Shown here piece after piece: positions 603 to 5,704 of a stretch of DNA of 38,136 nucleotides. This stretch comes from Deltaproteobacteria bacterium (GTDB lineage Bacteria; Bdellovibrionota_C; UBA2361; SZUA-149; JAITKM01): positions 1-38,136 of the forward strand of contig JAITKM010000009.1 of assembly GCA_031278395.1 (NCBI GenBank). The letters run 5' to 3'. The translations under genes were made by a program, and so were the position numbers. The notes below the pieces were generated by a model. It was not told the origin of the DNA, did not search any database, and saw only the letters and a list, made by a program, of their open reading frames with translations. How positions within the stretch are numbered: position 1 is the stretch's first letter; each line of letters opens with the position of its first letter.

Positions 603-1883
603 ATGACAAACATTAATTATTACAACCTCCATAATTACCATAGTCTAAATCCTGACGGCTCACCTTTTGAAGTTGTGGAACGAAAATTTAGAGGTCACCC
701 TGACTCTTTAGCAGATATAATTGCACAATCCTTTTCACAAAAATATATATACCAAGCATGGGATAAATTTCCTGAGTTAGAGCATAAATATTTTCCAAAT
801 TTTTCTGCAGATAAGGTAACGCTTACAGGTGCTAGTTCTTGTATTGAAAATAATCAAATTACAATCAAAAGCCCAGTACATGCCTTGTTGATAGGAAAAA
901 TTACTCAGAGTATAGGCAATATCGATATGGGGGTTGATAATTTATTTAAAGCTTCAATTGAAGAAAGTATGTCAACATGCCTGCATACAGATGACTACAA
1001 ACAGCACATTGCTCGTCAAATGTACGCCGTTAATTTGGCAGGGGTAGACCGTGGTAGACATTTTTATAATCCCCAAACTGTATCAGATTTAATAACTATA
1101 TTGCAAAAGGAAACGTTTGCTACAAGTACAGTGTATGTAGTTGCTTATGCACCTCTTAGCGTGACAGAAAAGCTCTCTATTTTTTTAGATAACTACACAA
1201 ACTCCCACGAATTTATCCTATCTTTTCCAGCAGTTGGATCTGATATTAAGGTGTTAATAAGGCGTAATGGATCAGAGTTTAATATTTCTTTGTGCCTTCC
1301 TGTTCGTCCTAAGATTATCAATACCATAGAAGGCTATAATAAAGTTATAAAATCTGCTACTGAGATGATTAAATTAGCTATTCTTAATTATCTAAAAAAC
1401 AGCGGATACGCTGATAATCCTAAGATCTACATACACGTAAATACGAAAGACACAGAAACAAAAAAATATTTTGCAGTATGGGGTACTGCATTATCCAAAG
1501 GAGACATTGGTGCAGTAGGTCGCGGGAACAGGCAACAAGGATTTATTAGTGGCATTCGACCAAGTACTAATGAAGCCATAAGTGGGAAAAACCCATACCA
1601 TTTCTCTGGTGTCATCTATCAAATTGTTGCAGATAGCATTGCAAATGAAATTTATAAAAAAACGAGATTGAAAAATATAGTATACATTACTGCTAATAAT
1701 GGTGACCCTTTAAAAAAGCCGAATTTAATAGATGTAATTCTCGAACCAGACGGTCATAACTTCAAGGTTATTATTGATAAAATCATTAATGATACACTTG
1801 ATAATTTAGATACATTACGTATGGAGTATATACTCCAAAATCCAATTGACCGCTTTATGAAACCAAAATCTTATTTACTATAG
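603..1883 (+). CDS. Archaeal-type S-adenosylmethionine synthetase (AdoMet synthetase, archaeal family)
   Basis: Motifs VVERKFRGHPDSLAD, YAPLSVTEKL, LPAVGSDIKV-like FPAVGSDIKV, GDIGAVGRGNRQQGFI and GKNPYHFSGVIYQIVAD match the archaeal MAT family, not bacterial MetK. Confidence 0.88.
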   Translation: MTNINYYNLHNYHSLNPDGSPFEVVERKFRGHPDSLADIIAQSFSQKYIYQAWDKFPELEHKYFPNFSADKVTLTGASSCIENNQITIKSPVHALLIGKITQSIGNIDMGVDNLFKASIEESMSTCLHTDDYKQHIARQMYAVNLAGVDRGRHFYNPQTVSDLITILQKETFATSTVYVVAYAPLSVTEKLSIFLDNYTNSHEFILSFPAVGSDIKVLIRRNGSEFNISLCLPVRPKIINTIEGYNKVIKSATEMIKLAILNYLKNSGYADNPKIYIHVNTKDTETKKYFAVWGTALSKGDIGAVGRGNRQQGFISGIRPSTNEAISGKNPYHFSGVIYQIVADSIANEIYKKTRLKNIVYITANNGDPLKKPNLIDVILEPDGHNFKVIIDKIINDTLDNLDTLRMEYILQNPIDRFMKPKSYLL

Positions 1884-1885
1884 AA

Positions 1886-3310
1886 ATGGCTAAAAAAATT
1901 GTTACGAGAAGTGGAATCACACCAGTTGGTAGTCCACAATACAGGATCAATAGGTTACGATATCACTTACTTGCTTATTCAATTTCGCAATCTGCCAAAT
2001 TAAATAGATTTGAGTCGAAATATATAATTCGTTGTGATGATACAAATGCGGAGACATCTAACCATTCATTTTTGTATGCATATTTAGATGTTCTGAAAAA
2101 CATTGGAGTTTGTCCCGACATGTGGCCGTACGATCGTGATGAAAATGGATATAGCTTGTTTCAATCTGAGCGCACTGATATTTATCAAACTTATATTCAA
2201 CAACTTATTAGTGATGGATTGGCGTATATAGATATAACCGGAGCAATCTTTTTCGACACAGGTGCGTTTGAAAGGAAATTTCGACATTTGATACAAGATG
2301 GAAAAATACTAATCCCAGATATGTCCATGGGCATGCTGTCAGTTGATATTCGTACATCATTGAACAATAGAAGCGGACAAATGGATTTGGTGCCATTCCC
2401 ATTAACAAGATCAAATGGCTCTTCACTCTTTAATATTGCATCACCAGTGGATGATGCTTTGCTCGGTGTTACACATGTTGTTCGGAATAAAGGAAAGCTA
2501 AGTTTACTTCATAATCAGGAAATGGTTCGAATTGCTCTTGGATTTCCTGAGTTAATATATGTGCACACCCCTCTAATCGTCGACAACGCTGGTATGAAGT
2601 TAGTCTACGATGAGTATTATGGCGAAGCTACTTATCAAAATTTTATTGAGCATGGCATTCTTTCAAAAGGACTTATCTCTTATTTACTATCTTCGATCGC
2701 CGGCGCCCCTGAAAAATTTTACGAATCAATTGATGATTTTGTAAAATTAACAGATTTTACAAATATTCATAAAGCAAACACAACTTTTGTCCCAGCGATA
2801 CTGGAAGAACATAATAAAAAAGCAATTAAAATTTCTTCTGAACAAGAATATGAGTTAGCATTACAAAATTATTTAAACATTTTTGATGATAAAGCATTAA
2901 GACTTTTTGTTACAAATATGGACATAAAACACTTATTATTTCAATCGAAACGAAGTTTTGCAGAATGTTCAAAAATTATTAAATGTGTACTTGATCCACA
3001 ATATAATCAAACTAAACCAGAATTAAAACAATTAATCAATTTACTTTTAAATAAGTTTTCTGAAATTGCAATAAAGGTCAAATTATCCGCTGATGATTTA
3101 TTAAACGAAAAAGTTATAGACTCGTTCAAAGTACAAAAGAAGGAGTATTTTCAAGCAATACGATATATATTGACAGGCGAATATTTTGGTTATGATTTGC
3201 ATGAAATCATCAAATATTTATCTAAGAAAGATTTAATAAGAAAAAGACTTGAAACAGCAAAAGAGTGCATAAGGGATTTAGGCGAAGGTAAATATGCTAA
3301 TGTTATATAA
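1886..3310 (+). CDS. Glutamyl-tRNA synthetase paralogue with degenerate class I signature motifs
   Basis: IIRCDDTNAETSNHS (RIEDTD-like region), FQSERTDIYQTYIQQLISDGLAY, GMKLVYDEYYGEATYQNFIEHGILSKGLISYLL (GKKLSKRHG region) and C-terminal KVQKKEYFQAIRYILTGEYFGYDLHEIIKYLSKKDLIRKRLE resemble GluRS across its length. Confidence 0.82.
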   Translation: MAKKIVTRSGITPVGSPQYRINRLRYHLLAYSISQSAKLNRFESKYIIRCDDTNAETSNHSFLYAYLDVLKNIGVCPDMWPYDRDENGYSLFQSERTDIYQTYIQQLISDGLAYIDITGAIFFDTGAFERKFRHLIQDGKILIPDMSMGMLSVDIRTSLNNRSGQMDLVPFPLTRSNGSSLFNIASPVDDALLGVTHVVRNKGKLSLLHNQEMVRIALGFPELIYVHTPLIVDNAGMKLVYDEYYGEATYQNFIEHGILSKGLISYLLSSIAGAPEKFYESIDDFVKLTDFTNIHKANTTFVPAILEEHNKKAIKISSEQEYELALQNYLNIFDDKALRLFVTNMDIKHLLFQSKRSFAECSKIIKCVLDPQYNQTKPELKQLINLLLNKFSEIAIKVKLSADDLLNEKVIDSFKVQKKEYFQAIRYILTGEYFGYDLHEIIKYLSKKDLIRKRLETAKECIRDLGEGKYANVI

Positions 3311-3334: not shown

Positions 3335-4034
3335 ATGCAAAACAAACATAATTCAATTATAGTTTTTGACATTGACTGGACACTTGTGCACGGATTAAAC
3401 CTTACGCATAGCGCGAGTTTTAGATATATGTTTGAATATGTGTTCAAGCTTAAAAACATAAATGTTTATGATATACGACCGCATGGAATGACGGATTTAC
3501 AAATAATTTTTGAAATACTGAAAATTCACAATTTATCGAATAAATTCACAAAAAAGCGATTAAATGCAGCAATCAAATTAATGGGAGATTACTACATAGA
3601 TAATTCACATACAGAACATATCAGGCTGATGCCTGGTGTAAAAAATCTGCTAGATATTCTAAAAAATACTGGACATCTCTTGGGTGTTTTGTCTGGAAAT
3701 ATAGAAAGGATAGGAAAACAAAAATTGTTAAATGCCTCAATATCAGAATATTTTTCTTTTGGCGCTTTTGGCAACATGTCTGTATCACGATCCAAATTAG
3801 TATACTTCGCAGAGAAAGACATGCTAAGACATGGGATTAATGGACGAAAAGATCAATTCGTTATTATTGGTGATTCGATACGAAATATTGAATGTGCAAA
3901 AAAATCAAAAATCCTGTCAATTGGTGTAGCAACCGGGGGCTTATTCAAAAGAAGAAATACAATATGCTGGTGCAGATTTGGTGATTGATACATTGGAAGA
4001 AGTAGGCGCTGTCATGCAATTTATTTCACGCTGA
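3335..4034 (+). CDS. HAD-superfamily hydrolase with a probable 1-nt frameshift near 3935-3939 (track ORF ends at 3988)
   Basis: FDIDWTLVHG, LSGN and IIGDSIRNIECAKKSKILSIGVATG are HAD motifs. Dropping one G from GGGGG restores GVATGAYSKEEIQYAGADLVIDTLEEVGAVMQFISR*. Confidence 0.75.
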
Positions 4035-4598
4035 TGATGAATTTGCATCATCCACATACTCGTTTGATATAATAATGTCATATGAAGTTATGATTTTTTC
4101 CACTACGTAATCGATTGACAAAGTTGTATTGTCTATAACAAAACTGTCACGTTCAGGTACTTGTAAAAAAGGATTAATTTTCGATAAATATGATTTAAGA
4201 GCATCAGTACCGTACAATTTGAGATAATTTTTCCTGTCTGGCTCAGCTATTCTAGCTTTTAATGCGTCTAGACTAGCTTTGAGCTGTACAAGATATACAG
4301 TGCCACCTCTTTTTTCATAAATATCAATATATTTTCTAAGTAGACAATCTTTATCACCGCTTTCGTAAACAAAAGTAAAAATTATATCGAGATTACTATC
4401 TGCAGCTATAGTAAATAAAAGGACTCTAACTGTATCTAAGGCAGCCCAGAATGGCTTGCTCCATACTTCAAAAAAAGAAGCTAGCAAATCCACTGTGAGG
4501 TGATGGTGAAATAGTTTAAATTTCGTCTTCAATGCTAGTTTTTTTGCTACGGTAAGTTTACCAACTCCAGGAGGACCGTATATTATTATCATTTTCAT
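4026..4598 (-). CDS. Small P-loop nucleotide kinase-like protein (shikimate kinase/AAA_33-like)
   Basis: N-terminal Walker A IIYGPPGVGKLTVAKKLA; overall size and layout of small kinases. Confidence 0.65.
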   Translation of the reverse strand: MKMIIIYGPPGVGKLTVAKKLALKTKFKLFHHHLTVDLLASFFEVWSKPFWAALDTVRVLLFTIAADSNLDIIFTFVYESGDKDCLLRKYIDIYEKRGGTVYLVQLKASLDALKARIAEPDRKNYLKLYGTDALKSYLSKINPFLQVPERDSFVIDNTTLSIDYVVEKIITSYDIIISNEYVDDANSSSA

Positions 4599-4831: not shown

Positions 4832-5455
4832 TTACGAGTTTGTTTCCGAAAGTATTATGAAGCTACCTTCTTTTAGAGTGACAACATTTCTCCCATCAGC
4901 ATTCGATTTCATAAGGTCATCGACATCATCCCAGAAAATCTGAGATTTATCGACGTCACCGTTATGAATGAATGTCGATCGATAGTGAGTAGCAATTACA
5001 ATCGGCAATAAACCTAACCCTTGTGCCAATTGAGGCGTTACGTCGGTAACAACATAATTCGAAGACAACATATATGCCCCTGCAGAGGATCCGACAATGG
5101 TTTTCCCAGATAGGTTGACCTGCCAGCCATTGACCTTTGCAAGTCTATTAATCAAGTCTTTGGTTGAGCCACCGCGAAACACAATGACATTTGCCCAAGC
5201 AACTTGCTTAATGAAATTGTTCAGATCAGCATTATCAAAAAATAGTGATACCCTATCATTGAATAATGTTATCTGACGCTTATCGTCTTCAAAACCAGTC
5301 TGCCACTTATCAAAAGGCATCGCAAAGCAACAAATCAAGACGTTCGCTGTTTTACGATCACCGATTATTGCTCTATAGAAAGCACTGCCGTTGTCAGGAG
5401 TTTTTTTCATAACCCCCCCTCCAAGTACGTACGTGATTGTATTTGAATTATTCAT
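4832..5455 (-). CDS. Peptidase S51 (peptidase E/cyanophycinase-like) family protein
   Basis: FRGGSTKDLINRL, IVGSSAGAYMLSSNYVVTD (nucleophile-elbow GSSAGA) and IATHYRS. Start reassigned from 5503 to the internal Met (MNNSNTITYVLGGGV). Confidence 0.75.
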   Translation of the reverse strand: MNNSNTITYVLGGGVMKKTPDNGSAFYRAIIGDRKTANVLICCFAMPFDKWQTGFEDDKRQITLFNDRVSLFFDNADLNNFIKQVAWANVIVFRGGSTKDLINRLAKVNGWQVNLSGKTIVGSSAGAYMLSSNYVVTDVTPQLAQGLGLLPIVIATHYRSTFIHNGDVDKSQIFWDDVDDLMKSNADGRNVVTLKEGSFIILSETNS

Positions 5456-5704
5456 CGTTTTTTTGTTGCGCGTTAACGCAAAGAAAAAGGATTTAAAAAA
5501 CAAAAAAGTAAAACCATTTTACTTATAAGTCTGTTTTTCGAAATTGAAGTTATTTTATCAAAAAATAAGTCAATTACGAAGCGTCGATAACTATATTATA
5601 AAAACACAAAAGTAAATTTTTTGAGTATAGAAAAAATAACTCCTCGAGATATATAATAAATTAGTATATTTTTTATTAGCGTCCAATTTTTGGGTTTTTC
5701 TTTT

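Follow-up and report, generated by a model that had tools for sequence, protein, structure and literature searches.

The MAT-GX gene pair and the housekeeping copies

Why does a bacterial genome carry an archaeal-type SAM synthetase (MAT) gene directly upstream of a gene for a GluRS paralogue? In the window, by which we mean the whole 38,136-nucleotide stretch of DNA analysed, the MAT (603-1883, + strand, 426 aa; PF01941, E 3e-57) belongs to a non-housekeeping lineage and is followed on the same strand by a GluRS-like protein of full length that lacks the HIGH and KMSKS motifs (1886-3310, + strand, 474 aa). We use the name GX for this 474-aa paralogue and its family. A sequence-only reading had placed the end of the MAT at 1883 and the start of the GluRS-like frame at 1886, and the ORF coordinates confirmed this 2-nt gap. 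It had left redundancy open, which could be settled from the host genome (1.71 Mb, 92% complete): a bacterial metK (C6:19822-20250, 218 bits) and a canonical gltX (C63:10071-11618, 314 bits), both scoring above cut-off, are found on other contigs, so that neither the window MAT nor GX is the housekeeping copy. The possibility that GX is the genome's only GluRS was ruled out by the gltX on contig 63. A foreign origin of the contig (C17) was also considered and rejected, as the island is continuous, on that contig, with genes for ribosomal proteins and EF-G.

The window opens at the contig end, so the context upstream of the MAT is lost. What remains comprises a short, apparently truncated RibD_C-like ORF of uncertain membership (241-525, + strand; below the Pfam cut-off, downstream frames closed) and a dispersed repeat of ~120 bases identified by alignment (50-165, + strand; 26-base core exact at 79-104). 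The same repeat adjoins the genome's second archaeal-type MAT island on contig 60 (L013:5590-5990), where it lies near a Y1/REP-type transposase gene (L013:6176-7150).

Sequence features and phylogeny of the MAT

The window MAT scores 194.6 bits against PF01941 (gathering score 27) and falls far below every NCBIfam housekeeping model (249 bits vs 481 for the best). Its GHPD motif (693-704, + strand), with the catalytic His retained in the alignment to TkMAT residues, and its GRGN motif (1518-1529, + strand; sequence and alignment) are present, as the sequence-only reading had noted. The closest MATs, at 33-35% identity, come from the actinomycetes Actinorugispora and Nocardiopsis. In the MAT tree, the window MAT falls in a clade of 16 (support 100/100) together with 13 actinomycete GX-linked MATs and two actinomycete MATs unlinked to GX. 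The MATs of the two Uhrbacteria-order loci described below (L029 and L143) form two further lineages; GX is thus paired with three MAT lineages, which indicates that the association is not one inherited accident.

Using the named residues of the Thermococcus MAT (TkMAT) as reference (PMC3853416), we found that GX-linked MATs retain the catalytic His, the adenine-stacking Tyr and the ribose aspartates. The methionine-carboxylate pair His62/Asn64 (HHN) is changed to NHW in actinomycete GX-linked MATs and to HK..NFS in the window, and Asn161 is Thr in the window MAT and retained in the actinomycete ones. Judged by these residues, the adenosyl side is predicted to be intact and the amino-acid side remodelled. 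GX-linked MATs therefore share with archaeal MATs (TkMAT, SsMAT; PF01941) the fold family, the GHPD His, the ribose aspartates and the adenine-stacking Tyr, but replace HHN (NHW/NHS; HK..NFS in the window) and belong to a non-housekeeping lineage. The earlier proposal of a dedicated SAM supply is uncertain, the methionine-carboxylate ligands being lost in the GX-linked MATs.

Sequence features, fold and phylogeny of GX

The window GX matches PF00749 (E 9e-16) and reaches 113 bits against the bacterial GluRS model TIGR00464 (E 2e-32), below its cut-off of 290, while the Glu-Q-RS models give 29-62 bits, far short of cut-offs of 250-453. We aligned 15 members (of 16 GX genes found) with 12 canonical GluRS. 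In the region equivalent to HIGH (PQYRINRLR in the window, 1934-1960, + strand), the His is replaced by Arg or Lys in 15/15 GX, and the loop equivalent to KMSKS (MKLVYDE, 2594-2614, + strand; reads GMKLVYDE) is absent or replaced in all 15, vs H-[IVM]-G and K[LM]SKR in every one of the 12 canonical rows. The altered PQYRINR and GMKLVYDE segments had been picked out from the sequence, and here they prove to be a family trait; the accompanying description of GX as an amino-acid-activating enzyme is not supported, both motifs being lost. RIEDTD carries Asp in place of Glu in all aligned GX. The Arg of RxxPSPTG is retained as an N-terminal Arg (RxGIxP), as are the Arg of VIRG (VVRG) and the VDD segment, and H27 and K204 are newly invariant across the 15 members. 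The two retained arginines and the changed Glu line what we take to be the counterpart of the glutamate pocket of Thermus GluRS.

The C-terminal domain of the window GX matches PF19269 at 2e-4, below the cut-off, indicating a diverged domain, and the other GX proteins scanned gave no PF19269 match. An AF2 model of the window GX (pLDDT 81.6, pTM 0.79) contains the two-domain GluRS fold, and the PDB structures most similar to it are GluRS, matched over the whole chain (Foldseek E 6e-20, TM about 0.6-0.7). In the tree, a branch with 100/100 support separates GX from the 12 canonical GluRS; inside GX, the window protein groups with that of L029 (97/89), a placement to be read with caution given the long branches. 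In five actinomycete pairs, dN/dS was about 0.27-0.39 (simple Nei-Gojobori), indicating purifying selection.

Distribution of GX and co-occurrence with MAT

Relatives were fetched from GTDB genomes with a MAT alignment, and their flanks were then screened with GX. This screen retrieved a GX-like gene next to the MAT in two settings: the Nocardiopsis group and an Uhrbacteria genome, L029, whose protein matches at 30% over 468 aa (2e-61). A GX profile search yielded 13 hits among 347 genomes of the Nocardiopsis order, two among 41 of the Uhrbacteria order (L029 and L143) and one among 383 genomes of a broad bacterial sample, the last being the host genome itself; no hit was found in 397 genomes across Actinomycetota, a sample that held no GX member as positive control. 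Two Patescibacteria proteins with E-values just past the threshold (L138, L139) were rejected because they have KLSKR and a HIGH-like motif and are canonical GluRS. Single-protein GX scans of GTDB and viral contigs and alignment-based scans of viral contigs gave no match. A tblastn search of phages and plasmids with GX returned only weak matches (22-31% identity), the annotated ones being gltX or, in two phage records, yadB.

An archaeal-type MAT adjoins GX in all 16 GX genes found, across three phyla. The pair is thus present in 15 genomes besides the host, from two phyla other than the host's, which answers the objection that it might be confined to a single genome. The background is low, with no archaeal-type MAT in the 45 other genomes searched in the host's phylum.

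Organization of GX loci

In the actinomycete order, all 13 loci consist of a MAT, a hydrolase of the alkaline-phosphatase superfamily (akin to NCBIfam STM4013; 1e-38, short of the cut-off) and GX, convergent with an intact gltX; both genomes that were checked encode another gltX elsewhere, and upstream about half of the loci have genes for an XRE-type regulator and a NUDIX protein. In these loci (L127-L141) the two convergent genes overlap by about 35-125 bases, the open frame of GX running into the 3' end of gltX. In L143, a MAT, an AlaRS-like protein, an S51 hydrolase, a SAM methyltransferase and GX lie on one strand between two transposase genes, the methyltransferase and GX overlapping by ATGA; this methyltransferase is not common to the other GX loci. 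In L029, GX and an S51 hydrolase share a strand and are divergent from the MAT and a glycosyltransferase. The genes of these operons are tightly spaced (the 2 nt of the window, a few nt in L015/L016, the ATGA overlap in L143). We found no dedicated tRNA-Glu in the islands and no extra gltX in the islands of the window, L029 or L143; MIPS, PIG-L and glycosyltransferase queries gave no match near GX genes, the glycosyltransferase of L029 being the only one seen beside GX.

In the window, the MAT-GX pair is followed by a HAD phosphatase-like ORF (3335-3988, + strand) whose reading frame, compared with the family consensus, is shifted close to the 3' end and, on the opposite strand, by a small P-loop kinase (4026-4598, - strand; weak PSTK/gluconokinase-type matches) and an S51-family, PepE/cyanophycinase-like hydrolase with a SAG nucleophile motif (4832-5503, - strand; PF03575, 4e-10). 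The HAD frameshift could reflect decay or an assembly error. S51 hydrolases are common to the three non-actinomycete GX loci (the copies of the window and L029 are merely distant relatives). The window hydrolase is therefore likely to belong to the system and is the best-supported member among the neighbours. Of the three neighbours named in the sequence-only reading, the peptidase can be kept; nothing supports membership of the frameshifted HAD or of the kinase, for which the other GX and MAT loci offer no equivalent, and the place of both is uncertain. As a candidate anti-phage defence system the locus was rejected: PADLOC gave no match for MAT, GX or the S51 hydrolase, and weak P-loop matches for the kinase only.

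Other islands with non-housekeeping MATs

A ~390-aa AlaRS-like protein occurs in 14 of 30 MAT-fetched islands vs 1 of 50 housekeeping loci, and S51 hydrolases in 7 of 30 vs 0 of 50; the p-values of this census serve description only, since the loci are interrelated and some (L127-L137 and L143) were fetched by GX itself. The AlaRS-like proteins retain motif-2 and motif-3 residues, and the fold of an AF2 model agrees with that of AlaRS catalytic fragments (E 1.5e-10). Myo-inositol-phosphate synthase (MIPS) is encoded in 10/49 islands with related MATs, and an F420-type gamma-glutamyl ligase in some, including a cyanobacterial one and the second MAT island of the host genome. The recurring element of the islands is a MAT together with something that handles an amino acid. 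In L046/L049, a sugar isomerase-like protein, MAT, a radical SAM protein, a PIG-L deacetylase, a glycosyltransferase, a kinase-like protein, an AlaRS-like protein and an S51 hydrolase are found together, a gene set that, by analogy, recalls mycothiol logic; the comparison with MshC drawn in the sequence-only reading is reasonable at this pathway level. An intact SerRS gene is present in each of the eight AlaRS-type islands from actinomycetes.

Several further loci were recorded. The second archaeal-type MAT of the host, on contig 60, is 29% identical to that of the window, and its island (G000:C60; L013:572-5555) encodes a glycosyltransferase, an HPr-kinase/PEPCK-like protein, the F420-type ligase and a shikimate dehydrogenase that is split; a Shapirobacteria bin and Moorena have comparable combinations of MAT, ligase and HprK. 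In L085:8950-16104 and seven actinomycete loci like it, all of the Streptomyces type, MAT is accompanied by APH kinases, a histidine phosphatase, the intact SerRS copy, a glycosyltransferase and the AlaRS-like protein, and the product of such islands may target SerRS. A Nanoarchaeota bin (L022, 6366-9684) has MAT, AlaRS-like and S51 genes, with N runs inside the AlaRS-like gene. The rickettsial plasmid AP017966.1 of Ca. Megaera polyxenophila (L009:13003-24645) carries an island with an archaeal-type MAT, a sugar isomerase-like protein, four oxidoreductases/dehydrogenases, a NUDIX protein, a nucleotide kinase-like protein, a carbohydrate kinase and a nucleotidase.

Proposed function and alternatives

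Recurrence of the pair in 15 other genomes and two other phyla argues for a role in a pathway rather than in protein synthesis, and MAT and GX likely serve an uncharacterised small-molecule or modification pathway, as had been suggested from the sequence. Our preferred reading, to which we give a probability of roughly 0.45, is by analogy that GX may be a Glu-tRNA-dependent glutamyl transferase in a SAM-linked, horizontally mobile small-molecule (or modification) pathway. An ordinary GluRS, or the extra intact GluRS of the Nocardiopsis cassette, would charge tRNA(Glu); GX would bind the charged Glu-tRNA(Glu) and, in the manner of SbzA acting on Ile-tRNA, hand its glutamyl group on to a small acceptor. 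The MAT would move the adenosyl group of ATP onto methionine or onto a sulfur nucleophile resembling it; the resulting SAM or SAM analogue would feed the same product, and the S51 or STM4013-type hydrolase would trim a conjugate.

With the HIGH His and the KMSKS loop lost throughout the aligned family, a pre-activated donor (Glu-tRNA) is likelier than activation of glutamate with ATP. In favour of the reading as a whole are also the retained arginines, the low dN/dS, the extra gltX in 13/13 actinomycete loci, the canonical metK and gltX elsewhere in the host, the constant MAT neighbour, the tight operons, the single GX branch, the precedents of SbzA and of the cyclodipeptide synthases (CDPSs) and the AlaRS-like enzymes in a similar slot of MAT islands. 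Against glutamyl transfer stand the diverged C-terminal domain, the islands' lack of a tRNA-Glu, the frameshifted HAD among the 3' neighbours and the imperfect fit of both precedents (SbzA has modified motifs, and CDPSs have no anticodon-binding domain). The extra gltX, found in actinomycetes only, could be a dedicated Glu-tRNA supply or equally a self-resistance gene. A broader and more tentative extension, which we regard as possible and distinctly less probable, is that the islands form one modular cross-phylum pathway class, in which a substrate-shifted archaeal-type MAT is combined with an interchangeable aaRS-like transferase (GluRS-like or AlaRS-like) or a glutamyl ligase, GX acting on an adenosyl- or cyclitol-derived acceptor.

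Among the alternatives, an MshC-like role fares best, though it is unlikely: GX, with its altered motifs, would still use ATP, or an adenosyl compound derived from the MAT reaction, to activate an amino acid and would ligate it directly to an amino sugar or cyclitol. MshC is itself a class I aaRS paralogue (PMC9437257), and the MIPS genes of related-MAT islands and the glycosyltransferase, PIG-L and AlaRS-like set of L046/L049 would suit such chemistry, but the two ATP motifs are gone in all aligned GX, and near GX itself the queries for this chemistry found nothing beyond the lone L029 glycosyltransferase.

Somewhat less probable still is a non-catalytic GX, a tRNA- or glutamate-binding regulator or self-protection factor in a pathway for an aaRS inhibitor, the extra gltX and SerRS being resistance copies. 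The intact gltX beside GX and the intact SerRS of the AlaRS-type islands fit this, and such a clustered IleRS led to the discovery of SB-203208 (PMC6331615). GX nevertheless retains pocket residues, and an extra gltX is unseen in the three non-actinomycete islands; GX as the resistant GluRS copy itself was rejected as unlikely, a protein without ATP motifs being unable to fill that role.

A function in RNA modification, with GX as a Glu-Q-RS-type enzyme or the tRNA-binding partner of a methyltransferase and SAM made locally, we consider improbable. It would draw on the GluRS fold with its anticodon-binding-like domain and on the methyltransferase of the L143 operon, which is missing from the other GX loci; Glu-Q-RS has no domain beyond the catalytic one and depends on ATP to activate Glu (PMC9437257), and the MIPS, NUDIX, kinase and glycosyltransferase genes linked to MATs elsewhere suggest small molecules. 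Chance neighbours or a decaying GluRS pseudogene, which the frameshifted HAD and the truncated RibD_C-like ORF close by might suggest, are refuted by the recurrence of the pair, with open full-length frames, the same altered motifs in 16 genomes and purifying selection in actinomycetes.

Relation to known systems and significance

To our knowledge, few aaRS paralogues serve outside translation. A review lists Glu-Q-RS only among GluRS duplications (PMC9437257). Glu-Q-RS/YadB is, like GX, a GluRS paralogue outside protein synthesis, but it is a stand-alone catalytic domain that keeps ATP activation, whereas GX is full length. MshC likewise acts in a small-molecule pathway (mycothiol) but is an ATP-dependent ligase of the CysRS family. 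SbzA, an IleRS-like protein of the SB-203208 pathway (PMC6331615), takes Ile from Ile-tRNA and transfers it to a metabolite, charging being left to a separate IleRS; it resembles GX in being a class I aaRS paralogue of full length encoded within a biosynthetic cluster and differs in its IleRS family, in HIGH and KMSKS motifs that are slightly changed but kept, and in that no archaeal-type MAT is reported in the sections consulted. CDPSs are class I aaRS-like and, like GX, lack the ATP motif, in their case because charged tRNA is their substrate (PMC4159871); unlike GX, modelled as GluRS over its full length, they are TyrRS/TrpRS-like Rossmann proteins without a C-terminal tRNA-binding domain. 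Our search of openly CC-licensed PMC text found no description of the MAT-GX pairing. Aminoacyl-tRNA synthetase-like enzymes in biosynthesis are thus known, and what is new is a GluRS variant that keeps its full length, lacks the ATP motifs and is linked to a remodelled MAT of the archaeal type.

GX and the remodelled MAT, found together in three phyla, provide a concrete enzyme pair to express, and the culturable hosts Nocardiopsis and Actinorugispora allow a search for the product by deletion and metabolomics. The analysis also flags AlaRS-like islands in Streptomyces, Bacilli, Patescibacteria and a Nanoarchaeota bin. If the islands do form one modular class, GX would be the first case of a full-length GluRS turned into a glutamyl-tRNA-dependent transferase.
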